DNA of 51,147 nt from Reinekea blandensis MED297 (GTDB taxonomy: Bacteria > Pseudomonadota > Gammaproteobacteria > Pseudomonadales > Natronospirillaceae), in assembly GCF_000153185.1 (NCBI RefSeq), contig NZ_CH724154.1, forward strand, positions 330,214 to 381,360. The letters are read 5' to 3'. Position numbers and translations under genes: made by a program. Below are positions 14,287 through 27,415 of this stretch, one piece after another (within the stretch, counting starts at the first letter, position 1; the number at the start of each line of letters is the position of its first letter). The notes beneath the pieces were generated by a model, which searched no databases, was not told the DNA's origin, and saw nothing but the letters and a program-made list of their open reading frames with translations.

Positions 14287-14429
14287 AAATATCCCCTTTT
14301 TCTTTGCGGGTATTACGCATTCTATCGGCTTTCGGATCAGCCTTATCCTCTGGTTGCAATTTTGACCTTCAGCGGCCTGATCGATTCAACAACTGTTCCA
14401 CAGTAGACTTTTCAATCGCCAAACCTATA

Positions 14430-14445
14430 CTGTATATACATACAG
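14430..14445. promoter_or_regulatory. LexA (SOS) box upstream of imuA
   Basis: The 16 bases CTGTATATACATACAG match the gammaproteobacterial LexA consensus CTG-N10-CAG, including the alternating TA core, with a single departure from the ideal TATATATA centre. It lies 17 bp upstream of the imuA ATG, where bound LexA would cover the promoter. This predicts DNA-damage induction of imuA-imuB-dnaE2. Confidence 0.92.
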
Positions 14446-14462
14446 TTTTTGGTAATTCTCTC

Positions 14463-15086
14463 ATGACCATGCTCGATACGCTGACCGAACAGGGCCGTCT
14501 CTGGAGTGCTCGGCACTGGCAGGAAACCCGGATTCCGGCCATCACGACCGGTCTGCCTGAGCTCGACCCTCACCTGCCGGGTCACGGCTGGCCGCTCGGA
14601 GCGGTCACTGAAATTCTGATCGACCAGCGCGCCAGCGGAGAGCTGCGCCTGCTGTTACCGGCCCTGGCGCGTCTCAGTACGCAAGATGCGCGCTGGCAAC
14701 TGTGGTTGAACCCACCTCTGCACCCCTGCGCACCAGCACTGCAACAATGGCAACTGGATACCGAACGGGTTCTGCTGGCGCGCGCCAAAAACGCGAACGA
14801 TCTCTGCTACAGTCTCGAAAAAAGCCTGAACAGTGGCGGCTGCCAGGCGGCGCTTACCTGGTGTGAAGCGCTCGACAAAGCGCTGATGCGACGAATTCAA
14901 CTGGCGGCAGAACGAGCCCGGGTTCCGGTCTTTCTGTTACGCCCGGCCCGGTTCGTTCAACAACCGAGTGTGGCCGCCCTGCGTGTGCATCTGCATGCGG
15001 ACTCACGACTGGATGTGCTGAAGCGTCGCGCTGGTTGGCCACGGCCGGACATTTCCCTGTCACTGCCGCTGACGCCGGAGCACTGA
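14463..15086 (+). CDS. imuA: ImuA, RecA/SulA-like mutasome subunit
   Basis: First gene of the SOS-inducible translesion synthesis cassette. It encodes 207 residues from the ATG at 14463; the frame runs further upstream but that part lies across the LexA box and cannot be translated from an SOS transcript. The sequence has the ImuA pattern ITTGLPELDPHLPGHGWPLGAVTEIL near the N-terminus, equivalent to the RecA-like fold start, and VPVFLLRP near residue 160. The Walker motifs expected of RecA are degraded, as in the SulA-like branch. One base separates its TGA from imuB. ImuA is thought to stabilise the ImuB-DnaE2 complex. Confidence 0.88.
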   Translation: MTMLDTLTEQGRLWSARHWQETRIPAITTGLPELDPHLPGHGWPLGAVTEILIDQRASGELRLLLPALARLSTQDARWQLWLNPPLHPCAPALQQWQLDTERVLLARAKNANDLCYSLEKSLNSGGCQAALTWCEALDKALMRRIQLAAERARVPVFLLRPARFVQQPSVAALRVHLHADSRLDVLKRRAGWPRPDISLSLPLTPEH

Positions 15087-15087
15087 C

Positions 15088-16479
15088 ATGCTGTGGCTGT
15101 ACCTGCACTTTCCACGTCTGGCGCTGGAAGCTGGCTTTTTAGGCGACCAGCGTCCGCTGCCGCAACTGTTGCTGCAACCGGGTCAGCATACGGTGCTGCA
15201 ATGCAATGACTATGCAAGGGACGCGGGCGTACGTGAAGGTATGAATAAAAAGACCGCTTTCTGCCTGCTTGCCGATTGCGCCCTGGCTGAATACGATCCT
15301 CATAGCGAACAACAGGCACTGCAGCAGTTGGCCCTGCAATGCTATCGCCATGCGGCTCAGATCAGCCTGCAGCCGCCCAGTGGTCTGTTACTGGAAGCCG
15401 GCTCCATGCTGGGGGTATTTGGCGGTCTGCAACCTTACTGGGAAAGCACCCGCACGCACCTGCAGTACAGCGGCTTCACCTGGTCAATGAGTTGCGGCGC
15501 CACGCCGGCGATGGCTCGGCTGCTGGCACAGGCTGGTATTGAGCTGTGCACCCAGAACCGAACCATCATGCTGCAGGCATTGGATACCTTAACCGTCGAA
15601 CAGCTCGATCTGGACAAGACCATTCAGACAAAACTCATGGCAATGGGCATTCAAACCTATCCTCAGCTCAAAGCCTTGCCCCGCCAAGAACTGGGTTTTC
15701 GCTTCGGTGCCGCGCTGGTCACGCAACTTGACCGGCTGGAACAAGACAATCAGCCACCCGAGCAGTTTGTATTACCACCGCGTTTCCAACAGACCATTCA
15801 TCTGAACTACGAAGCCGAACACGCGCGAGGATTGTTGTTTCCTCTGAAACGCATGCTGCTGACGCTGGAAAGTTATCTGCAGAGCCGACAGCTCCTGTGT
15901 GAAAAACTGCTCATCAAGCTGGAGCATCGCGACGGTCGGGCGTCGCTCATGACAGTGCCGTCCGTTCAGGGCAGTGACCGGCAAAGCGACTGGCTGGCCC
16001 TGCTCGATACTTACCTGGAACAGATGACACTGATCGATCCGGTGACAGCGGTAACCCTGCGCGCGAAAGACTTTCGTACCCGGCAACACGACAGCCATGA
16101 CTTTCTCGGCGACCGTTTTCCCCAGGCCGATGCCAACCGCATGCTGTCCTTGCTGCTCGCGCGTCTCGGCGAACCAAATGTCCGCAAACTGTCGGTGCAG
16201 CATGACCCGCGGCCGGAAGTGGCCACCGGCCTCATCGATGCGCAACAGAGCCGTCATACGCTGAACCCTAAGCACTGGCCCAGCATGCTCTGGCCGCAGC
16301 CAAAGCCGATTGATATCCGGCCGTACCGGATTCTCTCCGGCCCGGAACGCATTGATGGCGGATGGTGGGACGCCGCGCCCACGCGACGGGATTATTACGT
16401 TGCCGAGCGAGCGCAAGCCAGCTTCTGGGTCTTCCGACGCGATGACGGACAGTGGTTTCTCCATGGCGAATTCCTCTGA
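15088..16479 (+). CDS. imuB: ImuB, catalytically dead Y-family polymerase homologue
   Basis: Protein of 463 residues that acts as a beta-clamp-binding hub of the ImuA-ImuB-DnaE2 mutasome. It has the Y-family fold but lacks the metal-binding acids: the N-terminal strand reads LWLYLHFPRLALE rather than a DxD-containing DMDAFFA type, and the palm motif reads LLEAGSMLGVFGG in place of SIDE. It still contains the helix-hairpin-helix-like segment LMAMGIQTYPQLKALP and the little-finger region. A clear clamp-binding pentapeptide was not identified. It starts 1 nt after imuA and its end overlaps dnaE2 by 17 bp. Confidence 0.92.
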   Translation: MLWLYLHFPRLALEAGFLGDQRPLPQLLLQPGQHTVLQCNDYARDAGVREGMNKKTAFCLLADCALAEYDPHSEQQALQQLALQCYRHAAQISLQPPSGLLLEAGSMLGVFGGLQPYWESTRTHLQYSGFTWSMSCGATPAMARLLAQAGIELCTQNRTIMLQALDTLTVEQLDLDKTIQTKLMAMGIQTYPQLKALPRQELGFRFGAALVTQLDRLEQDNQPPEQFVLPPRFQQTIHLNYEAEHARGLLFPLKRMLLTLESYLQSRQLLCEKLLIKLEHRDGRASLMTVPSVQGSDRQSDWLALLDTYLEQMTLIDPVTAVTLRAKDFRTRQHDSHDFLGDRFPQADANRMLSLLLARLGEPNVRKLSVQHDPRPEVATGLIDAQQSRHTLNPKHWPSMLWPQPKPIDIRPYRILSGPERIDGGWWDAAPTRRDYYVAERAQASFWVFRRDDGQWFLHGEFL

Positions 16480-19400
16480 GACCGACCTCGGCTTTGCCGA
16501 ACTGCATTGCCTGAGTAACTTCAGCTTTCTGCGGGCCGCTTCTCATCCGCAGGAACTGATTCGACGTGCCAGCGAACTCGGTTACCGCGCTCTGGCCGTC
16601 ACCGATGAATGCTCGGTCGCCGGTGTCGTCCGCGCCTGGCGCGAGCGCAAAGATAATGAGCTCGACATTAAGCTGATCGTTGGTTCCGAATTTCTGGTCG
16701 ATGGACATACGCTGGTCTTGCTGGCGCGCAACAACGAGGGCTATCGCCAACTCTGCCAGCTCATCACCCGCATGCGGCGACGTGCAGAAAAAGGCCAGTA
16801 CGACGCTCGCTTGCATGACTTTCAGCAAACCAGCACCTCCGACTGCCTGTGCCTGTACCTGCCCCCCAGACATGGTGATGTCCGCGCCACGCTTCAGCAT
16901 TTATGCCATCAGTTTGAAAAGCGTTTATGGTTGCTGGCCGACAACAGTCTGGATAACGACGCACCCCGATTACGCGAACGGGTCGAACAACTGGCCGAGG
17001 ACTATCAGCTGCCCATTGTCGCCAGCAGCCATGTACAGATGCACATCCCTGAACGCAAAAAACTGCACGACTGTCTGACCGCCATCCGGGCAAACCAGCC
17101 TATCGAAGCCATCCGGCATCAACTGAAACCCAACGCCGAAAATCATCTGCGCTCGCTGAAAAAACTGGCGCATATTTTTCCGGCCGACTGGCTCCATAAT
17201 TCCGTCCATATTGCGGACCAATGTCAATTTGAGCTCGACAGCATCCGCTATCGCTATCCGAAAGATGTCCTGCCGGGGCAATACAGCGCTGGCGAATATC
17301 TTCGGTTGCTGGTGAAACAAGGTGTGCAGAGACGATTTGGCAGCCAGGTGGAAGCGGAGCTCTGGAAGCGCATCGACACCGAACTGGCGTTGATCAAACT
17401 CAAAGGCTTTGAGCATTATTTTCTGACCGTTTATGACATCGTACGTTTCGCTCGCAGCCGGGGCATTCTTTGTCAGGGGCGTGGCAGCGGTGCCAATTCC
17501 GTCGTCTGTTATGTGCTCGGCATCACCGAGGTAAACCCGCGCGAGGCGTCCCTGCTGTTCGAACGCTTCATCTCCGAAGGCCGCAAAGATCCGCCGGACA
17601 TCGATGTCGACTTTGAACACGAGCGCCGCGAAGAAATCATTCAGTATCTGTATGAAAAGTACGGTCGCAAGCGTGCCGCCCTGGCCGCTACCGTCATCAC
17701 CTATCGACGTAAGTCCGCGCTGCGTGATGTTGCCAAAGCGCTCGGCATTCAGGTCGACCTGCTGGATCAGAAAATCGCCAACTACGGCTGGCGCTATCGC
17801 AGTAAAGACTGGATCGATGAAATCATTAACGACGGTCTGGGCTTGTCGGCTTACCAGATCGATATTTTCAAAACGTTACTGAAGGAGATCAGCAGTTTTC
17901 CCCGCCACCTGTCTCAACACGTTGGCGGCTTTGTGATTACCGAAGGCGTGGTGGCCGATCTGGTGCCAATTGAAAACGCCAGCATGGCCGACCGCACCGT
18001 CATTCAATGGGACAAGGACGACCTAGAATCGCTGAGCTTAATGAAGGTCGACATCCTCGCTCTGGGCATGCTCAGCGCGGTGCGTAAAAGCCTGGATCTC
18101 ATCCGGGACTTTCACCAGCAACCGATTCAGATTCAGGACATTGATCGCGACGATGCCGATGTTTTCCGCATGATTCAGAAAGCCGATACCGTCGGCGTTT
18201 TTCAGATTGAATCCCGCGCACAGATGAGCATGCTGCCACGTCTGAAACCTCACTGTTATTACGATCTGGTTGTGCAGGTCGCCATCGTCCGGCCCGGTCC
18301 GATTCATGGCGACATGGTGCATCCCTACCTGTTACGCCGCGAAGGCAAAGAACCGGTGGTGTACCCGAAACCGGAACTGAAAGAAGTACTGGAGCGCACC
18401 TACGGCGTACCGATTTTTCAGGAACAGGTGATTAAGCTGGCGATGGTCGCAGCCGACTTTAATGGCACCGAAGCAGACGAACTGCGACGGTCCATGGCCA
18501 GTTGGAAAAAGACCGGACACATGAGTCATCTGCACGCCAAACTCAGTGAAAAAATGCTGGCTAATGGCTACCCACAAGACTACATCGACCGGATCAACCG
18601 ACAGATTGAAGGCTTTGGTGAATACGGTTTTCCCGAATCTCACGCGGCCGGATTCGCGTTGATTGCCTACGTATCTTCCTGGTTAAAGTGTCATTACCCG
18701 GCAGCTTTCTGCTGCGCACTGCTCAACAGTTTACCAATGGGCTTTTATTCGGCCTCACAGTTAGTGCAGGACGTGCAACGACATGGCGTGAAAGTACGAC
18801 CGGTTGATATTAACCACAGCGATTGGGACAGCACGCTGGAGCCGGACAACACCAGTACCGGTGATGCCGCACTGAGGCTGGGACTGAGACGAGTCAAAGG
18901 GCTGAGCGAGCAGGCTGCGATCAGTCTTTTACTTTATCGCCCGGCCGACGGTTTTCAAAGCTTACGACAGTTAGAAAAGATCCCTGGGCTGCACAAAGGC
19001 GACATCGAAGCGTTGGCCAGCGCCGACGCGCTTGCCGGCATCGCCGGTCATCGTTTTCAGGCTCGCTGGCAGGCTGCCGCCATGCACCCACAGAACGATC
19101 TGCTCAGTGATGCCTTCGATAATGATGACACCGCCCTGCCCGCGCCCGATGATTACGATAATCTGGTCGAAGATCAGGACAGTGTCGGCCTATCCCTGCG
19201 CACCCATCTTGTGCGGCTGCTGCGCGAGCGCGACATGCTGCCGGATACGCCAACAGCAGACCAACTGCTGGCACTGGCCAACGAAGCCCAAAGACAACGC
19301 CGGGGCAACCCAGACGATAAAATCAAAGTGCCCATTGTCGTCAGCGGCCTGATCACCAATCGACAAATGCCCAAAACCGCCACCGGCGTTACGTTCGTGA

Positions 19401-19615
19401 CACTGGAAGATCATACCGGCAACATCAACCTGATTGTCTGGCTGCCCGTTGCACAGAAATACATGAAAATCCTCACCACTGAAAAACTGGTGGTCGTGCG
19501 CGGCGTATTAGAAAAATCCCCGGATAATGATGTGGTACATGTCATTGCGGAAGAGTTTAAAGGGTACAGTGAACTGGTGGCGGACTTTAAACAGGGGTCA
19601 CGGAATTATCATTGA
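16463..19615 (+). CDS. dnaE2: Error-prone DNA polymerase DnaE2 (ImuC)
   Basis: Alpha-subunit-type C-family polymerase of 1050 residues for damage-induced mutagenesis. The ATG at 16463 (MANSSETDLGFAELHCLSNF) is chosen because it begins the PHP domain and overlaps the imuB end, as usual for the cassette; the open frame extends upstream inside imuB. Domains in order: PHP (AELHCLSNFSFLRAASHPQELI), palm with PDIDVDFEHERREEII (Asp379, Asp381), finger and HhH region (IPGLHKGDIEALA), and a C-terminal OB domain (VSGLITNRQMPKTATGVTFV then TLEDHTGNINLIVW). Length is shorter than DnaE1, as expected for DnaE2. No separate terminator is visible before the convergent gene 8 bp further. Confidence 0.96.
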   Translation: MANSSETDLGFAELHCLSNFSFLRAASHPQELIRRASELGYRALAVTDECSVAGVVRAWRERKDNELDIKLIVGSEFLVDGHTLVLLARNNEGYRQLCQLITRMRRRAEKGQYDARLHDFQQTSTSDCLCLYLPPRHGDVRATLQHLCHQFEKRLWLLADNSLDNDAPRLRERVEQLAEDYQLPIVASSHVQMHIPERKKLHDCLTAIRANQPIEAIRHQLKPNAENHLRSLKKLAHIFPADWLHNSVHIADQCQFELDSIRYRYPKDVLPGQYSAGEYLRLLVKQGVQRRFGSQVEAELWKRIDTELALIKLKGFEHYFLTVYDIVRFARSRGILCQGRGSGANSVVCYVLGITEVNPREASLLFERFISEGRKDPPDIDVDFEHERREEIIQYLYEKYGRKRAALAATVITYRRKSALRDVAKALGIQVDLLDQKIANYGWRYRSKDWIDEIINDGLGLSAYQIDIFKTLLKEISSFPRHLSQHVGGFVITEGVVADLVPIENASMADRTVIQWDKDDLESLSLMKVDILALGMLSAVRKSLDLIRDFHQQPIQIQDIDRDDADVFRMIQKADTVGVFQIESRAQMSMLPRLKPHCYYDLVVQVAIVRPGPIHGDMVHPYLLRREGKEPVVYPKPELKEVLERTYGVPIFQEQVIKLAMVAADFNGTEADELRRSMASWKKTGHMSHLHAKLSEKMLANGYPQDYIDRINRQIEGFGEYGFPESHAAGFALIAYVSSWLKCHYPAAFCCALLNSLPMGFYSASQLVQDVQRHGVKVRPVDINHSDWDSTLEPDNTSTGDAALRLGLRRVKGLSEQAAISLLLYRPADGFQSLRQLEKIPGLHKGDIEALASADALAGIAGHRFQARWQAAAMHPQNDLLSDAFDNDDTALPAPDDYDNLVEDQDSVGLSLRTHLVRLLRERDMLPDTPTADQLLALANEAQRQRRGNPDDKIKVPIVVSGLITNRQMPKTATGVTFVTLEDHTGNINLIVWLPVAQKYMKILTTEKLVVVRGVLEKSPDNDVVHVIAEEFKGYSELVADFKQGSRNYH

Positions 19616-19623
19616 GGGACCCG

Positions 19624-20751
19624 TTAACCATGGCGAACTGACGCGATGGGATGGCCATGGCGTTGTCCAAACAGGTCGGCAAAATCCAGATCACTGAGCG
19701 TTGTAGTACATTGCCAATTTCTTGGTGACTGGCAGGCTTCCCGTAGCAATTCATCACGACAGTAAGCCATAAACCGTGCCCCATGCGGGCGAGTAATAAA
19801 ACCCCATCGTTTCAGGTATGACACAAGCCGGTCATCTTTGCCATGAAACACCAGGCTATCGACGCCATGCTCAGCCGCAAGGTGTAGCAGGGCAGCCAGG
19901 GTTGGTGATATCGCGGTGTCATTGTCGCGAAAAAACTCGCTGATAAGCCACTGCAACGTACCTTGTACGCGGCGTGTACGAATCACTAGTATCGCCTCAC
20001 CAAACTTACCTTGAGATTGCCAACATCGGTAGTCGGTTTGATCAAAACGCCATTGTAAATGAGAGAAATCGGCTTCAAGTTGAATGTAGCCGGAGGCGTG
20101 CTCCTTTATCCGAGACACTTGAGCGGGTGTCAGCGAATTCAGCTTTTTTAAACCGACGTTTGGTCCGGTCGCTAATCGAGTTCGCTGCCATAACCGGCTC
20201 AACACCGTCACCAAAGAGCGGCCAACCCGACGTGTCAATCCTTCGCCCTTCTGCCGGGGCATGGCACAACCATTCAAAGGCGCCACCAGGTAATCCAAAC
20301 AACCCAAATCCATCCAATTAAGGCGTTTGTACATGGCGTAGGCTTCATCGGATATCCCCTGACAAACCACGATTGGGTAAGCCTCGGTCAGATGAGTGGT
20401 CAGTGCCACCCCTAAGCCTTTCAGCTTCCAGGCTTCATCAACATACAAATTAAACGCATTTACGGCCTGCACCCGCTGCTCGCCAACCTTCAGATAAAAG
20501 GAACGGCAGCATTGTTGACCCACAACCCGATGGCCATCCCAAGCATAAATCACATCAGCAGCCGGCGACCGCCCTATCCAGTCCTCGTAGGCCGACTGCA
20601 GCTGATAAAACTGTTGGCCATACGCCTGTTCGCGGAAGGTTCTCAGTTCAGCCTGGTGCTGTGTATTGTTGCCATAGAACAACATCGATTGGAAACGCTG
20701 CAAAGTGCGCTTGGCAATACGTGCCGGGTCTCGAGTCACCGACGGGTTCAT
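19624..20751 (-). CDS. GNAT-like acyltransferase, last gene of the asnB-acp-ligase-nadE operon
   Basis: Protein of 375 residues. Residues about 35-150 look like a GNAT fold: QSAYEDWIGRSPAADVIYAW, a strand VNAFNLYVDEAWKLKGLGVAL giving the acyl-donor loop (KGLGVA), then a helix and MYKRLNWMDLGCLDY. The second half (about 210-350) looks like another GNAT-related lobe (LEADFSHLQWRFDQTDYRCW, GFITRPHGARFMAY), as seen in two-lobe or FemAB-like acyltransferases of polysaccharide loci. The start overlaps the nadE-like stop by 4 bp (ATGA), so it is cotranscribed. It may transfer the acyl group from the ACP encoded in the same operon to an amine. The family call is tentative and the substrate is unknown. 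Confidence 0.7.
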   Translation of the reverse strand: MNPSVTRDPARIAKRTLQRFQSMLFYGNNTQHQAELRTFREQAYGQQFYQLQSAYEDWIGRSPAADVIYAWDGHRVVGQQCCRSFYLKVGEQRVQAVNAFNLYVDEAWKLKGLGVALTTHLTEAYPIVVCQGISDEAYAMYKRLNWMDLGCLDYLVAPLNGCAMPRQKGEGLTRRVGRSLVTVLSRLWQRTRLATGPNVGLKKLNSLTPAQVSRIKEHASGYIQLEADFSHLQWRFDQTDYRCWQSQGKFGEAILVIRTRRVQGTLQWLISEFFRDNDTAISPTLAALLHLAAEHGVDSLVFHGKDDRLVSYLKRWGFITRPHGARFMAYCRDELLREACQSPRNWQCTTTLSDLDFADLFGQRHGHPIASVRHG

Positions 20752-21719
20752 GAGGCTTCCAAACGTAACGGTGACATATGCAGATACTGGGTGGTTTTTC
20801 GTTTCTGCTCAATATCATCGTAAATACGTTGTGCCACTGCAATATCAAGCTCCAACCGTTTGGCTAAATCAGCGGCCGGGCGAGACTGATTTTTATAGAG
20901 CAGTGCCAAGTCCATTTGCTCATAAGGTAACGCGAAATAAAACTCATCCTGCCCCTGCGGCAACGAATAGGTATCGGTTGTCGGTGTGGTCTGACAGATA
21001 TTTTCCGGTAACTCGAGGTAGCGTGCCATGGCATAAACCTGGCTTTTATACAGATGACTGATCGGTTTAATGTCGGCCGCGCCGTCTCCATTTTTAACAA
21101 AGAAGCCCTGATCGTACTCCAGACGATTTGGCGTTCCGACCACCGCATAATTACGGGCATCGGCATGGAAGTACTCCATGGTTTTACGAACACGTTGTTT
21201 AAAATTGGTTGCTGCAACAATGCTCAGATAGGCTTTCAATGGCAAGGCGGCTTCAAAACGCTGGCCGTCTGGCGATTCTGCGACGACGGTAAAATGGTTA
21301 ATCAGGCCCTGGCTCGCGCCCGACAACACGATTTTGCTTTTCCAGTCAGACTGATACTCAGGAAGAGCGATACGAATGGCTTCGTCACGCCGACGATAAC
21401 AGTCCAACCCGTCCAGTGTGGCGGTAATGTCTTCAAGCTGAGCCTCGATACCCAAATGCTGCACCAACACGTCGGCCAGTTTTCGGCTGTCGTCAGAAGA
21501 GTCGGCTTCGGGCATCATCAAGCCCAACACACGCTCCGGACCAATAGCCCGAACCGCCAACGCAGCACACACCGAACTGTCGATACCGCCGGACAGACCC
21601 ACAACCAAACCACGCCGATGCAGTGTCCCGGCTAACGACTGACGAATAAAGTTGGTAATGCGATCGGCTTCAAAGGCCAGGTCGAGCTGTAGTTCCGGGT
21701 CCAGATATTGATCACGCAT
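20748..21719 (-). CDS. NAD-synthase-like ammonia-dependent adenylating amidase
   Basis: N-type ATP pyrophosphatase of 323 residues that adenylates a carboxylate and amidates it with ammonia. The PP-loop is SGGIDSS at 43-49. The downstream part resembles NadE: GTPNRLEYDQGFFVKNGDGA, DIKPISHLYKSQVYAMARYL, LPENI and PTTDTY. Against canonical NadE (about 275 residues) it has an extra segment near 110-170. The ATG at 21719 has AGGGA seven nucleotides upstream and overlaps the ligase stop by 8 bp; a GTG one codon earlier is less likely. It could be the cell's NAD synthase, but the operon context with asnB, ACP and an acyl-AMP ligase suggests a pathway-specific amidation. The family assignment is good; the specific role is open. 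Confidence 0.8.
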   Translation of the reverse strand: MRDQYLDPELQLDLAFEADRITNFIRQSLAGTLHRRGLVVGLSGGIDSSVCAALAVRAIGPERVLGLMMPEADSSDDSRKLADVLVQHLGIEAQLEDITATLDGLDCYRRRDEAIRIALPEYQSDWKSKIVLSGASQGLINHFTVVAESPDGQRFEAALPLKAYLSIVAATNFKQRVRKTMEYFHADARNYAVVGTPNRLEYDQGFFVKNGDGAADIKPISHLYKSQVYAMARYLELPENICQTTPTTDTYSLPQGQDEFYFALPYEQMDLALLYKNQSRPAADLAKRLELDIAVAQRIYDDIEQKRKTTQYLHMSPLRLEAS

Positions 21720-23223
21720 CACACAATCCCTGTAGTTGTTCTAAGAGTTTAAAACGTTGAATTTTTCCGCTGGCGGTTTTTGGTAATTGATCCAACCAAA
21801 CCACCTCGCGCGGCACTTTGTAACCAACCAATTGTTGCGCGCAGTGTCGTTTGACCATCAGGCTATCACCCTGTCCGCTCCGGCTTACACAACAGGCCAC
21901 CAGTCGCTGCCCGGTACGCTCATCCTCAACTCCGATGACCGCGGCTTCTAAAATACTATCTGACTGACAAATGACTTCTTCGATTTCCAGCGGGTTAATC
22001 CGATTCTCAGCAACCTTGATCATGTCGACCTTCCGTCCGGTGATGAACAGGTATCCGTCAGCATCCAGATAGCCCAGGTCACCGGTTTTAAGCCCATACT
22101 TTGTTAACACGCAAGCCGATGCTTCTGGGTTTTGCCAGTAACCCTGCATGATATTGCCGCCCTGTGCATACACTTCTCCAACGCAGCCGGTCGCACAGGG
22201 CCGTTGATCATCATCCCGTATGCTCAGGACAATATGTTCCAGCGCATGACCGGCCGAGCCCATCTTGTCGTTCAACTTCTCCGGTGGCAGATAGGTAATG
22301 CGCGCAGCGGCTTCTGTTTGCCCATACATGACAAACAACCGGGTGCGGGCATCTAAAGCCGCTAACAATTGCTGCGTCAGGTCGACACCCATGGCTCCAC
22401 CCGCCTGAGTCACGTAGCGCAACGGCGGTGGAAACTGCGCGATGTCCGTGAGCTTGACGAGACTGCGAAAGGTGGTCGGCACACCGGAAAAGCCAGTTGC
22501 TTTGGTTTGACGCAATCCATCAACAACCTGTTGTGGAAAAACCATCTGAAACCCGACAATCACGGTGCCGCCAGTCACCAGATGCGTGTGCAGTACCGAG
22601 TTTCCGTAGCTGAAATGGAACGGTAAAATGGTCAGCACTCTGTCCTGTTGATTCAGTTGGAGGTAACGCACAATGTCGTCGGTATTGATCGCGAGGTTTT
22701 CATGACTCAACACAACACCTTTCGGGTCGCCGGTCGTGCCTGACGTATAAAGTATCTGAGCGATATCATCCGATGACAGAGGAACCTGTTGCTGTAACGG
22801 TATCGCTTCGGTCAGTCCCAGCGAGGCAAACAGATCCAACGATGGCTCAATCGTCTCGACCTCGACGGATTCAGGTAAAGACTTCGACAACGTTGACGCA
22901 ACCGCCGGTGAGGTCACGATTAAACGAGCACTGCACTGCCGGACAACCAGGGCTAACTCGGTAGCGGTGGACCGGGCATTGACCGGTACCACAATGCCCC
23001 CTAAACGCCAGATGGCATAAAACACAACGACATACTCAATCGAGTTTTCGAGGCAAATAACAACGCGCTCCTGCCGAGCCAATCCTAAATTGTTCAATCG
23101 AGAGGCGTAACGTGAACTGACGTCAGCCAATTGCCCATATGTCAATTTGGAGTTGCCATGCTCTACGGCAACTGCGTTCGGGTTTTGCTCACAGCGCAGC
23201 CAAACCTGGTCAGGAATGAACAT
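21712..23223 (-). CDS. Acyl-AMP ligase (ANL superfamily) of the asnB-acp operon
   Basis: AMP-forming acyl-CoA/acyl-ACP ligase of 503 residues. Motifs: P-loop YTSGTTGDPKG (159-169), the adenylate-binding VMYGQTEAAARI, the hinge region LKTGDLGYLDADGYLFITGR, and the C-terminal catalytic lysine in PKTASGKIQRFKL (Lys487). This type activates a carboxylic acid and loads it on CoA or on a phosphopantetheinyl carrier; the ACP gene 21 nt upstream makes carrier loading likely. It resembles the ligases that sit beside ACP and asparagine-synthase genes in exosortase or polysaccharide loci, but no exosortase is present here. The acid substrate cannot be read from the sequence. Confidence 0.88.
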   Translation of the reverse strand: MFIPDQVWLRCEQNPNAVAVEHGNSKLTYGQLADVSSRYASRLNNLGLARQERVVICLENSIEYVVVFYAIWRLGGIVVPVNARSTATELALVVRQCSARLIVTSPAVASTLSKSLPESVEVETIEPSLDLFASLGLTEAIPLQQQVPLSSDDIAQILYTSGTTGDPKGVVLSHENLAINTDDIVRYLQLNQQDRVLTILPFHFSYGNSVLHTHLVTGGTVIVGFQMVFPQQVVDGLRQTKATGFSGVPTTFRSLVKLTDIAQFPPPLRYVTQAGGAMGVDLTQQLLAALDARTRLFVMYGQTEAAARITYLPPEKLNDKMGSAGHALEHIVLSIRDDDQRPCATGCVGEVYAQGGNIMQGYWQNPEASACVLTKYGLKTGDLGYLDADGYLFITGRKVDMIKVAENRINPLEIEEVICQSDSILEAAVIGVEDERTGQRLVACCVSRSGQGDSLMVKRHCAQQLVGYKVPREVVWLDQLPKTASGKIQRFKLLEQLQGLCDA

Positions 23224-23244
23224 AAAACCTCCTCAGAGCAACGT

Positions 23245-23502
23245 TCAGGCGGGTATCCGATTAACGATAAACGCCATCAGGTTATCAATGCTGTCGAGAT
23301 TCTCCGGCACCATTTCAGCCGGCGCCACCATGACCCCCAGCTCTTCTTCTAAAAAGGCAATCAACTCCAGAATGCCCATCGAATCCAAAATGCCTGCCTT
23401 TAAAAAGGATTGCGTATCCGATAAGGCATTTTGATCATCCGTAAACAGATAGTTTTCCAGAATGAATGCCCGCAATTGCGACCGAATCTCCATGTCTGAC
23501 AT
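23245..23502 (-). CDS. Acyl carrier protein
   Basis: Small acidic carrier protein of 85 residues with the phosphopantetheine attachment site Ser41 in GILDSMGILELIAFLEEEL. The DSM sequence in place of DSL is common in pathway-dedicated carriers. It is unlike fatty-acid AcpP (no DSLDTVELVM). The start ATG has AGGAG seven nucleotides upstream; it lies 10 nt after asnB and 21 nt before the ligase. It probably carries the acyl intermediate made by the ligase for the GNAT-like acyltransferase. Activation would need a phosphopantetheinyl transferase encoded elsewhere. Confidence 0.92.
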   Translation of the reverse strand: MSDMEIRSQLRAFILENYLFTDDQNALSDTQSFLKAGILDSMGILELIAFLEEELGVMVAPAEMVPENLDSIDNLMAFIVNRIPA

Positions 23503-23512
23503 AAGCCAACTC

Positions 23513-25429
23513 CTATAGCGTTGTTAAACCGAATGACTCGGTTAGGATCTGAGTCGAAATAATCCCGATCAGTGCCTGGGACTCCGACGTGTTTAGCGGC
23601 TTGCTCCGCGCCTTGCGCATTAACCGCTGTACTTTGTGTGCTGAAAACAAACCCTTTGCCCGTATACGGGACTCACTGAGCCCTTCCCGGATGTCATCAC
23701 GCTCAACCAAAACCTTTAGCAATCGGGCATCCGGCGCACGATAAGGCTGCTTGGATCGTTGTGCGATGGCCGGAGGTAATTGAGAAGCAAAGGCTTTTTT
23801 CAACAGATACTTTTCATTCAAAACTTTCATCTTGAGAGCATCGGGCAGCCGTGATGCCAGCTCGATGACCCGATGATCCAGAAATGGGAACCGACCCTCA
23901 ACAGAATGCATGGACAGCATCCGATCGCCCTGCGTACTGAGCAGATAACCCGGCATGAGCAACGTGGATTCAATGTACTGAGCTCGCTGAAACGAACTCA
24001 TCGATGAACCGGATGAAAGGATTTTTTCGGCACGGGACAATGCCGACGTTTGCAACGCAGCGTTCAGGTCATCGGAATAAAACTGTTTGGCTTTGGCCGT
24101 CGTCGTCCATCTGGGCATGTGCGAATACAGCACATGATCGGGCTGATCCAGCATGACATTAAAAAACGCACGCAGGTATTCGGCTTGCCCCTGTGCCGGA
24201 AGTTGCAGATACTGATACAGCTTTTTCAACAGTAACGGGCGGCTTTCGGATTGCGGTTGTCGTGACCAGAACTGACGAATTTTGGTTTCCTTAAAAAGGT
24301 CGTAACCGCCAAACACCTCGTCGGCACCTTCGCCCGTTAACACAACTTTAAAACCCGCTGCATTGACCTTCGCTGACAGCAAACCCATAGGCACCGGCGC
24401 CGCTCGCAACATGGGAGTTTCGGCGTGCCAAACCGACTCGGCAAACGCATCACAGATGTCTTCTTCAGTTACGTGGCATTCAGTGTGCGACACGTTCAGC
24501 GACTCGATCAGCATACGCTGATAGCAACGTTCATCAACGTCAGGATCGGAAAAACCCAAGGAGTAGGTGTTCAATCGCTCGGGGGAAAGACGGTTAATCA
24601 ATGTTGTAATTATCGAGGAGTCGAGCCCACCCGACAGATACGCTCCGACAGGCACATCCGAGCGCAACCGAATACGGACGGCATCGGTGAGTTCTTCATG
24701 CAATGACGCCGCCCACTCGGTTTCGGACATGGCATTCTTTTGAGGGGAATAGTCAAACGACCAGTACTTCCAATGCTGTCGACGGCCATGTGACAAACAG
24801 ATCATTTCACCCGGCTGAACCGTTTGTATGTTTGCAAAAACAGTCTCAGAGCCTAACGGTGTCCAGCAAGTAAAAATTTCATCGAGAACCGCCAGATTCA
24901 ACCGCGGTGAGTCCATCATTGCCGGAATGATGGCTTTAACTTCACTGCCAAACAGGATCCCATCGCGGGTGTCAGAATAAAACAGCGGACAGATACCGAC
25001 GCGATCCCGCACTAACAACAGTTGCTGCTCGCGAGGGTCCCAGATCACAATGGCAAACTGTCCGTTAAGATGCTGCACAAACGACTGGCCGTACTCCAGA
25101 TAAGCCCGCAACACCACCTCGGTGTCACAGTGAGTCGTAAACTGATGACCTAAGCGAGTCAGGGTTTGTCGCAGTTCCGGATGATTAAACACTTCCCCGT
25201 TGTACACGAGCACAACCTGGCTGGAAGGGTCGACCATAGGTTGCTGACCATGCGCCGGGTCGACAATACTCAACCGACAATGTGCCAAGGCGACCTGTTC
25301 GTCGCAATAGTAGCCGGTCTCATCCGGCCCTCGATGGGAGATAGGGGAAAGCATGGCGGACAGCAGTAACTGCTGCGCCTGTGCAGAAACCGTTGCACCC
25401 GGGGAGTACTTACCTGCGAATCCACACAT
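23513..25429 (-). CDS. Glutamine-hydrolysing asparagine-synthase-like amidotransferase
   Basis: AsnB-family enzyme of 638 residues. The N-terminal class II glutaminase domain has the nucleophile Cys2 (MCGFAGKYS), the HRGPDETG loop, LAHCRLSIVD and VYNGEVFNH. The synthetase domain has the PP-loop SGGLDSS, TGEGADEVFGGY, and the C-terminal KYLLKKAF. It transfers glutamine ammonia to an adenylated carboxylate. Its length and its position as first gene of an asnB-acp-ligase operon resemble amidotransferases of natural-product and exosortase-associated polysaccharide loci more than housekeeping AsnB. A GAGG precedes the ATG, and a perfect palindrome lies 24 nt upstream. A housekeeping asparagine synthase role is the main alternative. 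Confidence 0.9.
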   Translation of the reverse strand: MCGFAGKYSPGATVSAQAQQLLLSAMLSPISHRGPDETGYYCDEQVALAHCRLSIVDPAHGQQPMVDPSSQVVLVYNGEVFNHPELRQTLTRLGHQFTTHCDTEVVLRAYLEYGQSFVQHLNGQFAIVIWDPREQQLLLVRDRVGICPLFYSDTRDGILFGSEVKAIIPAMMDSPRLNLAVLDEIFTCWTPLGSETVFANIQTVQPGEMICLSHGRRQHWKYWSFDYSPQKNAMSETEWAASLHEELTDAVRIRLRSDVPVGAYLSGGLDSSIITTLINRLSPERLNTYSLGFSDPDVDERCYQRMLIESLNVSHTECHVTEEDICDAFAESVWHAETPMLRAAPVPMGLLSAKVNAAGFKVVLTGEGADEVFGGYDLFKETKIRQFWSRQPQSESRPLLLKKLYQYLQLPAQGQAEYLRAFFNVMLDQPDHVLYSHMPRWTTTAKAKQFYSDDLNAALQTSALSRAEKILSSGSSMSSFQRAQYIESTLLMPGYLLSTQGDRMLSMHSVEGRFPFLDHRVIELASRLPDALKMKVLNEKYLLKKAFASQLPPAIAQRSKQPYRAPDARLLKVLVERDDIREGLSESRIRAKGLFSAHKVQRLMRKARSKPLNTSESQALIGIISTQILTESFGLTTL

Positions 25430-25453: not shown

Positions 25454-25474
25454 ACAGATACCGACGGTATCTGT
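25454..25474. promoter_or_regulatory. Perfect 21-bp palindrome in the asnB leader (candidate operator)
   Basis: The half-site ACAGATACCG (25454-25463) and its exact reverse complement (25465-25474) flank one central base. The palindrome ends 24 bp before the asnB start codon on the minus strand. The size and symmetry fit an operator for a dimeric regulator such as a TetR- or LuxR-type protein, or a stable hairpin in the mRNA leader. A TTGACA-like -35 on the minus strand lies just upstream at 25509-25514, but no good -10 is correctly spaced. Confidence 0.55.
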
Positions 25475-25891: not shown

Positions 25892-27415
25892 TTAACGACT
25901 CAACAGCCGCTCAACAAAGCCGTCCAGTCGTCCATCACGAATCAGGTTGGCGGCCTTTTCAATGTCGGGCGCAAAATAACGGTCTTTATCGTAAAACGGC
26001 ACTTTGGTTCGTAAGACCGCTTTGGCTTCTTCCAGTTTATCCGAAGACGACAACGGCGCTAAGAAGTCCAACCCCTGACAGGCGGCCAGGTATTCCACCG
26101 CCAGAATGCCTACGGTATTTTCATGCATATCCTGCAAACGCCGCGCAGCAAAGGTGGCCATCGAGACATGATCTTCCTGATTTGCAGAAGTCGGCAACGA
26201 GTCCACCGAAGCCGGATGCGCATAGGTTTTATTTTCGCTGGCTAACGCCGCACTGGTCACCTGCGCAATCATAAACCCGGAGTTCACCCCGCCGTTGTTC
26301 ACCAGAAACGGAGGTAAGCCACTGAGCTTGCTGTCGATCAACAGCGCCATTCGCCGCTCCGAGAGCGAACCGATTTCCGCAATCGCCAAAGCAAGATTAT
26401 CAGCGACCATGGCTATGGGTTCGGCATGAAAGTTCCCCCCGGACAGCACCACGTCATCATCGGCAAACACCAGTGGATTGTCTGACACCGCATTGGCTTC
26501 GGTCACCATCACGCTCGCGGCATGACGCATCTGCTGCAGACAGGCACCCATCACCTGAGGCTGGCATCGCAGTGAGTACGGGTCCTGTACTTTTTCGCAG
26601 TCCTCGTGTGAGCGTTCAATGGACGAGTGAGCCAACAGAGAACGATAAGCGCTGGCCACATCGATCTGGCTCTGATGCCCGCGCACGGCATGAATCCGCT
26701 CATCAAATGGCGCGCGCGACCCTTTCGCCGCTTCAACGCTGAGTGCGCCAATCACCACGCCGGCATGCAACACGTTTTCAGCCGCAAACAGCCCTTTCAG
26801 TGCCAGCGCTGTGGACGCCTGGGTGCCATTCAACAGCGCCAGCCCCTCTTTCGGCGCCAGGACAATCGGGTCCAGTCCGGCCACCTGAAGCGCCAGTTTT
26901 GCGGAGGTACGCTCCCCACGGACAAAGGCTTCACCTTCACCCAGCAACAGGCAACTCATGTGCGCCAGGGGCGCTAGGTCGCCAGACGCACCGACGGAAC
27001 CTTTCACCGGTATACACGGGTAGATTTCCTGATTCAGCAAGGTGATCAACGCTTCGATGACGCTTAAGCGGATACCGGAGTAACCCCTCGCCAGTGAATT
27101 GATTTTCAACGCCATCAGCAAGCGCACGGTGTCTTCAGACATAAACTCACCGATGCCGGCCGCATGACTCAGCACAATCGAGCGTTGCAGCGTTTCCAGC
27201 TCTTCCGGCGCAATGCGGGTATTGGCCAGCAGACCAAAGCCGGTGTTAATGCCATACACGACGCGATTTTCATCGACCACTTTCTGTACGGTTGAGGCGG
27301 CGGCATCAATCGCGGGCACTGCCGCCGGGTCGAGAGTGAGCTGCACCGGCTCGCGAAAAATATCGCGCAGGTCATTCAGTGTCAGCTCACCGGGTTTGAG
27401 TGTCAGTGCCTTCAT
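25892..27415 (-). CDS. hutH: Histidine ammonia-lyase
   Basis: Catalyses deamination of L-histidine to urocanate, the first step of histidine catabolism. It has 507 residues, the normal length. The Ala143-Ser144-Gly145 triad in [14 protein letters not shown] forms the MIO prosthetic group. Other conserved parts are GINTGFG, the LLNGTQAS motif and the [14 protein letters not shown]-like segment ([15 protein letters not shown]). The start ATG overlaps the hutU stop by 4 bp (ATGA), so it is the third gene of the hutC-hutU-hutH unit and should be controlled by HutC. Confidence 0.97.

Follow-up and report, generated by a model that had tools for sequence, protein, structure and literature searches.

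Exopolysaccharide loci of the XrtA/PEP-CTERM type pair an AMP-forming ligase (TIGR03098) with an AsnB-like amidotransferase (eps_aminotran_1, TIGR03108), and the available portions of two reports place asparagine synthetase genes in the floc-forming exopolysaccharide clusters of Zoogloea and Aquincola (PMC9012009) and of Thauera (PMC4784049). On pSymB of Sinorhizobium meliloti, the ligase SMb20650 is cotranscribed with the acyl carrier protein (ACP) SMb20651 and acylates that ACP in Escherichia coli, as stated with reference to earlier work in the accessible part of PMC7232532, which also describes SMb20650 as no substitute for FadD. Here, we analysed an operon with comparable parts in a stretch of 51,147 nucleotides from Reinekea blandensis MED297 (contig NZ_CH724154.1, positions 330,214 to 381,360; hereafter, the window). 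It encodes an AsnB-like protein, an ACP, an AMP-forming ligase, a NadE-like protein and a two-lobe GNAT-like acyltransferase. The asnB and nadE-like genes of this operon are not housekeeping copies. Our best explanation, held with a little less than even confidence, is that the five genes form a self-contained, horizontally acquired and mobile tailoring module, patchily distributed among relatives, that would supply an amide-bearing acyl group for an XrtA-like exopolysaccharide encoded on another contig.

Enzyme families encoded by the operon

Five open reading frames, all present on the minus strand between positions 19624 and 25429, make up the operon:

23513-25429, minus strand: AsnB-like glutamine-dependent amidotransferase, 638 aa (TIGR01536; Cys2 and SGGLDSS)
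23245-23502, minus strand: stand-alone acyl/peptidyl carrier protein (ACP), 85 aa (PF00550; DSMG phosphopantetheine serine)
21712-23223, minus strand: AMP-forming acyl ligase, probable ACP loader, 503 aa (PF00501)
20748-21719 (ATG start, 323 aa) or 20748-21722 (GTG start, 324 aa), minus strand: NadE-like ATP-dependent amidating enzyme (NF002048)
19624-20751, minus strand: two-lobe GNAT-like acyltransferase, probable final amide-bond former, 375 aa (structure model; HMM family)

The spacing is tight, with gaps of 10 nt between asnB and the ACP gene and 21 nt between the ACP and ligase genes, and overlaps of 4 nt between the nadE-like and GNAT genes and of 8 nt (ATG start) or 11 nt (GTG start) between the ligase and nadE-like genes. 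The coordinates and spacing given in the initial annotation were thus confirmed, and Pfam and NCBIfam models name four of the five products.

The NadE-like protein is the most distinctive component. It exceeds the cut-off of NF002048, the PRK00876-type NAD(+) synthase model (470 bits, cut-off 313), as well as that of TIGR00552 (150 bits, cut-off 63.65), with the motifs SGGIDSS and GTPNRLE...KNGDGAADIKP intact. Its structure model (pLDDT 91.7, pTM 0.90) best matches the NAD synthetase 2e18 (E 1.2e-18; TM by query 0.67, by target 0.84), and alignments with solved NAD synthetases show that the residues around ATP are kept. The Pfam profile is split on this protein, extending to residue ~103 and resuming from 167 with only 11 profile positions between, which points to an insert of ~50 residues between residues ~104 and 166, modelled as a helix and three strands (127-133, 142-148 and 154-158). 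The stretch 246-266 (PTTDTYSLxQGQDEFYFALPY), most positions of which are invariant or nearly so across 53 aligned sequences including that of the window, is unlike the corresponding stretch of solved NAD synthetases. Insert and altered stretch together suggest an amidating enzyme with a new substrate.

The R. blandensis genome (labelled G000; 4.53 Mb in 10 contigs) encodes a separate NAD synthase domain on contig C5 (G000:C5:20134-20880, 237 bits over the whole profile, in an open frame of 539 aa) and, on the same contig, a second AsnB (locus L007) that is 26% identical to the window AsnB. A further NAD synthase match was found in each of 19 carriers of the NadE-like gene, this genome included, with scores of 209.8 to 261.9 bits in 18 and a partial match of 81.6 bits in the nineteenth (G127). 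In a tree of 31 NadE-like and 17 housekeeping proteins, from which an eighteenth housekeeping protein (G191) was lost at domain trimming, the NadE-like proteins form one side of a branch with support of 89/96; the inner branches are very long, and at the deepest split the one short housekeeping protein, that of G032 (branch length 10), is placed with the NadE-like proteins. With another AsnB and another full-length NAD synthase encoded in the genome, and with the gene set conserved elsewhere, the copies in the operon are not housekeeping genes. A dedicated pathway had been proposed at the outset, with the reservation that it would be unlikely if these were the only asparagine and NAD synthases of the genome and the genes were not conserved together; neither part of that reservation applies. 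The PRK00876-type family also occurs, over its cut-off, in the archaeon Methanosarcina acetivorans, which served as a control genome.

The AsnB-like protein passes the glutamine-hydrolysing asparagine synthase model TIGR01536 (490 bits, cut-off 267.1) and stays below TIGR03108 (388.8 of 816.9 bits) and TIGR03104 (353 of 570); Cys2 and SGGLDSS are intact, and its best solved relatives are the hydroxyamidotransferase 7ylz, followed by asparagine synthetase B (1ct9). Five related AsnB proteins, four of them entered as BLAST-matched segments, scored 396 to 449 bits against TIGR03108, all below the cut-off. The ligase, which retains YTSGTTGDPKG and PKTASGK, matches PF00501 with 272 bits. Its best NCBIfam scores, against PRK06187 (351 bits, cut-off 476) and ligase_PEP_1 TIGR03098 (343.7 bits, cut-off 592.35), are both below the cut-off, and its closest solved relatives are fatty-acyl and feruloyl-CoA synthetases. 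Four of five related ligases reached 343.8 to 457.6 bits against TIGR03098, again below the cut-off, and the fifth (L068) was absent from the matches at E 1e-90; BLAST-matched segments were used for four of the five, which makes their scores slightly low. The ACP keeps DSMG, matches PF00550 (24.5 bits, cut-off 20.8) and is closest among solved structures to peptidyl carrier proteins, including PltL, and then to D-alanyl carrier proteins. We take the conserved motifs of these three proteins and of the NadE-like protein to be those needed for activity.

Two further affiliations were considered and rejected. The best NCBIfam match of the carrier, ACP_for_OlsHI, remains at 53.8 bits against a cut-off of 130, and the terms looked up for the ornithine lipid pathway do not occur in the accessible part of PMC12493201. 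The S. meliloti gene asnO (FixT; N-acetylglutaminylglutamine) was set aside as a relative of asnB, given the TIGR03104 score below the cut-off and the placement of AsnO in that other pathway in the portion of PMC7078487 available.

No Pfam or NCBIfam model matches the GNAT protein at E 0.001. Its structure model, built from 38 sequences, is of good quality (pLDDT 88.0, pTM 0.87), and Foldseek ranked N-myristoyltransferases first (5npq, 354 columns, E 1.4e-12, TM 0.49), with bacterial tandem GNATs (3n7z and 2ozg, TM 0.55) also among the matches. With two lobes in one chain and alignment over its full length, the protein is predicted to have the two-lobe GNAT fold that had been proposed for it from sequence, a likeness of fold at moderate TM and not of family. 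N-myristoyltransferases divide the acyl donor and the acceptor between their lobes; by analogy, the window protein would bind the acyl donor in one lobe and the acceptor in the other. Iterated HMM searches started from four GNAT-like clusters of neighbouring genes converged on a single family of 48 proteins in 48 of the 87 loci described below, 46 of them 333 to 388 aa long and 27 encoded directly downstream of the nadE-like gene on the same strand. The window protein does not belong to TIGR03694 (exosortase-associated acyltransferase/N-acyl amino acid synthase), matches to which are confined in this genome to one frame on contig C7, below the cut-off.

Conservation, distribution and exopolysaccharide linkage

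In a scan of 84,980 species' genomes, at least 558 relatives of the NadE-like protein were confirmed. The 80 best loci, with the window and six plasmid loci added, gave 87 loci for analysis. Their selection rested on NadE-like similarity, and some are closely related to one another (several come from Sinorhizobium and Pseudoxanthomonas) or lie on short contigs, so that the counts that follow are not frequencies. Gene calls came from a codon-usage caller, for which one annotated locus (L095) served as a check by eye. The ligase was found in 82 loci, the ACP in 80, asnB in 68 and the GNAT in 48. The grouping is more than chance: in 55 of the 87 loci, the asnB, ACP and ligase genes are on the same strand as the nadE-like gene and no more than six genes away from it, and in 30 loci this is true of all five genes. 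The gene-neighbourhood search suggested in the initial annotation recovers the set repeatedly, and the division of labour proposed there, an ACP with its loading ligase, two amidating enzymes and an acyltransferase, is supported in outline. Nearest to the window in AsnB and ACP, among the loci analysed, are two Kangiellaceae metagenome-assembled genomes (L013 and L014) and one of Woeseiaceae (L068), all with the GNAT; in Nitratireductor and Roseateles plasmids, a GNAT of the same family lies directly upstream of asnB.

Additional genes accompany the set in some species. A PrmC/HemK-like methyltransferase gene occurs in 24 of the 87 loci (e.g. L008:23146-23874), the one representative tested being over the HemK cut-off and below that of PrmC, and the amide may be N-methylated in those species. 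Eight loci (L026, L033, L035, L044, L069, L071, L073 and L078) carry a KAS III-like gene and a small ACP-like gene near the set, six of them together with a GNAT of the family; the KAS III-like genes were named from one representative and the small ACP-like genes by eye (DSMG), with no Pfam match for the one tested.

Among relatives, the distribution is patchy. At E 1e-60, the NadE-like gene was found in three of 57 genomes, namely R. blandensis and two members of the same order, and in none of six congeners or 15 other family members. When the six congeners were searched at the DNA level, dnaE2, which flanks the operon on one side, was matched in five and hutH, from the other side, in three; because the two flanking genes are not adjacent there, no empty insertion site could be defined. 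The only congener match within the operon, 91 bases in G002 (45 bits), lies inside the nadE-like gene and is as strong as the one to the genome's own housekeeping NAD synthase. Outside this group, genome G192 (L125; G192:C8:107991-108506), which has an exosortase and TIGR03013, contains a partial NadE-like match with a stop codon, below the cut-off, perhaps a decayed copy.

The window itself holds no exosortase, glycosyltransferase or other polysaccharide gene among its 41 called genes, all of which were run against Pfam (5 of one 23-gene subset had no match). To that extent, the initial statement that no exosortase or glycosyltransferase is present stands for the window; it does not extend to the genome, where exosortase and exopolysaccharide genes share a locus on contig C5. 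There, an exosortase exceeds TIGR02602 (111 bits, cut-off 105.55) while remaining below the XrtA-specific cut-off, and an XrtA FemAB protein (298 bits, cut-off 260) and a TIGR03013 glycosyltransferase (497 bits, cut-off 393) are also encoded. Two group 1 glycosyltransferases and an O-antigen-ligase family protein adjoin the second AsnB, and the contig further encodes an FkbH-domain protein, an amino-acid-adenylation ligase, a further carrier protein by the ACP model (C5:363402-363635) and one more by eye, without a Pfam match. Within the exosortase-type locus (C5:363402-372928; L105:8402-17928), a carrier protein, an FkbH-domain protein and an acyl-CoA-dehydrogenase-like protein form a trio that we take to resemble glyceryl- or hydroxymalonyl-ACP pathways, possibly providing another carrier-bound group for a polysaccharide.

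Markers of XrtA-type exopolysaccharide were present in 30 of the 87 loci. These comprise eight clusters, seven named by NCBIfam from one representative each and the eighth, which adds no locus, by eye; representatives over the cut-off (TIGR03013, TIGR03006, TIGR03027 and TIGR03019) alone account for 29 loci, and three were below it. On an Azospirillum plasmid, all five genes adjoin a sugar transferase, an O-antigen ligase, three glycosyltransferases and a polysaccharide deacetylase. Among 369 genomes drawn evenly from the class, 17 have the NadE-like gene above the cut-off (the partial match of G192 being an eighteenth, below it). TIGR03013 was found in 15 of these 17 carriers vs 108 of the 352 other genomes (p 2.6e-6), and an exosortase (E <=1e-10) in 12 of 17 vs 104 of 352 (p 8e-4), p-values that treat genomes as independent although two of the 17 carriers come from one genus. 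Read in 14 of the 19 known carriers, the module surroundings include XrtA-type genes, by best match to the clusters, in G127, G256, G328, G364, G385 and G387; the fetched stretches of G032, G041, G191, G241, G395 and G403 contain none, and by names assigned by eye the module lies near neuB/neuC-like genes in G266 and near an NRPS-like gene in G100. In G069, G132, G354 and G360, an exosortase and TIGR03013 are on the same contig, ~13-21 kb from the nadE-like gene.

Several observations weigh against an exopolysaccharide role. No GNAT-family gene was found in 39 of the 87 loci. Two of the 17 carriers (G100 and G191) lack TIGR03013, and five have no detected exosortase. For the seven class carriers in which the module was judged unlinked (G000, G100, G191, G241, G266, G395 and G403), five have TIGR03013, a weak association (p 0.034). 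Polysaccharide genes are absent, by clusters, from the fetched stretch in 49 of the 87 loci, the window included; polysaccharide genes are undercounted here, with L010 among the 49 despite annotated glycosyltransferases and 15 of the 87 stretches under 12 kb. On balance, genomes as a whole show a strong link with exopolysaccharide, and unlinked modules a moderate one. The independence from exosortase polysaccharide loci implied at first is not supported, given the markers in 30 loci, the exosortase locus elsewhere in this genome and the enrichment of TIGR03013 in carriers.

Proposed pathway and alternative explanations

In the pathway that we favour, the ligase would adenylate a carboxylic acid and load it onto the ACP, and the AsnB-like enzyme would amidate one carboxylate with glutamine as donor. 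The NadE-like enzyme, with its ATP site kept and its substrate side rebuilt, would then adenylate and amidate a second carboxylate, which may belong to a nucleotide-diphosphate-linked uronic acid. A UDP-uronic acid is an attractive candidate because nicotinate adenine dinucleotide likewise presents a ring carboxylate joined to a diphosphate nucleotide. Finally, the two-lobe GNAT would take the acyl group off the ACP arm and attach it to an amine, probably that of an amino sugar. ACP loading is the best supported step, and its experimental support probably lies in a relative: the ACP-ligase pair of S. meliloti locus L094 is probably SMb20651/SMb20650, as presumed from the same gene order. The later steps and all substrates are deduced from fold, intact motifs and gene context.

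More tentatively still, the module may represent a mobile and widespread pathway: a NAD synthetase rebuilt for another carboxylate, for example a nucleotide-linked uronic acid or an ACP-linked diacid, would act together with the carrier protein and the two-lobe GNAT to place a new kind of carboxamide on exosortase-type exopolysaccharides, in trans where the module is unlinked, and the pathway would include hundreds of genes now called 'NAD synthase' or 'asparagine synthase'. If so, a family-model 'NAD synthase' of hundreds of genomes would be a polysaccharide- or lipid-tailoring enzyme, with a pathway hidden under housekeeping labels and consequences for annotation and metabolic models. The exosortase-type exopolysaccharides of environmental bacteria, which are poorly understood, would gain a specific chemical modification, and the five-gene cassette would offer a product that could be sought by expression.

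In the strongest alternative, the product is not a polysaccharide decoration but a free N-acyl amide (a lipo-amino acid, surfactant or signal). The ligase and ACP would then provide a fatty or aryl acyl group, the GNAT would N-acylate an amine and the amidating enzymes would cap carboxylates as primary amides. We consider this rather unlikely, yet it stays a serious rival because 49 of the 87 loci, including the window, lack exopolysaccharide genes nearby and eight carry the KAS III-like and small ACP-like genes, six of these with the GNAT, suggesting a supply of acyl chains. The resemblance of the GNAT fold to N-myristoyltransferase also agrees with it, although that likeness was counted for the exopolysaccharide reading as well. 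Against a free amide stand the presence of the exopolysaccharide marker TIGR03013 in 15 of 17 carriers, the failure of the GNAT to match any NCBIfam family, hence also TIGR03694, and the statement, in the accessible part of PMC7232532, that the probable relative SMb20650 cannot replace FadD for growth on oleate.

Aminoacylation in the manner of the Dlt system appears improbable. In such a scheme, the ligase would load an amino acid onto the peptidyl-carrier-like protein, the GNAT would pass it to a surface sugar or lipid, and the AsnB and NadE-like enzymes would amidate the side chain or the polymer. The nearest solved relatives of the carrier, peptidyl and D-alanyl carrier proteins, are consistent with this scheme, whereas those of the ligase are fatty-acyl and feruloyl-CoA synthetases. 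Amino-acid-adenylating enzymes keep an Asp in FDxS; the window ligase has FHFS at this place. The operon lacks the DltA-type ligase of a D-alanylation system: no DltA model is among the best 25 of 106 NCBIfam families matched by the window ligase, the lowest of which scored 210 bits (DltA cut-offs, 476 and 560), and another ligase of the same genome (L106:285-1820) reaches 324 and 305 bits against the DltA models. That the genes are housekeeping duplicates providing extra asparagine and NAD, together by chance, is scarcely credible, for although both proteins pass the general cut-offs of TIGR01536 and TIGR00552, the conserved grouping with ACP and ligase, the further full-length NAD synthase encoded by 18 of 19 carriers and the insert and altered stretch of the NadE-like protein all argue otherwise.

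Genomic surroundings and comparison with described systems

A perfect palindrome precedes the operon:

25454-25474, no strand assigned: perfect 21-bp palindrome with 10-nt arms and a 1-nt centre, 25-45 nt before the asnB start

It is a possible operator or 5' hairpin. A search of the whole genome with up to three mismatches, as a lead to a regulon, gave no other copy; no regulator gene adjoins the operon, and promoter and terminator scans scored at or below chance. One flank is formed by an imuA-imuB-dnaE2-like cassette on the plus strand, with the dnaE2 end at 19615. This SOS mutagenesis cassette (14304-19615), composed of imuA (ImuA_translesion, over the cut-off), an ImuB-like gene (weak Pfam IMS match, below the cut-off) and an error-prone DNA polymerase gene, is convergent with the GNAT gene and ends 8 nt from its stop. 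On the other flank lie hutH- and hutU-like genes (aromatic amino acid lyase and urocanase families), the first of which ends at 25892.

Comparison with known systems places the operon among related pathways. TIGR03098 and TIGR03108, the ligase and amidotransferase families of XrtA/PEP-CTERM loci, rank among the best curated matches of the window ligase and AsnB, with cut-offs that neither these nor the related proteins tested reach. Unlike the XrtA system, in which no matched model names a NadE-like or two-lobe GNAT partner, the window module has both and is unlinked. The S. meliloti pSymB loci (L094 and L096) share the order asnB-acp-ligase-nadE with the window, but their GNAT-family gene lies ~10 kb away on the other strand. 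The NadE-like protein resembles the NH3-dependent NAD synthetase NadE in fold and in the residues around ATP, and differs from it in the insert, the altered stretch, its own side of the tree and the presence of other NAD synthases in carriers. N-acyl amino acid synthases of the TIGR03694/FeeM type, like the reaction proposed here, involve GNAT-type acyl transfer from ACP to an amine; the window GNAT is of another family, with two lobes in 375 aa and no NCBIfam match. Linkage of these synthases to exosortase is cited in the available part of PMC7293339. By title or abstract, we found no description of the five-gene set in the open literature, a scope that excludes most subscription journals. 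The set is read as one of the exopolysaccharide- or acyl-amide-tailoring kind, with a repurposed NAD synthetase.

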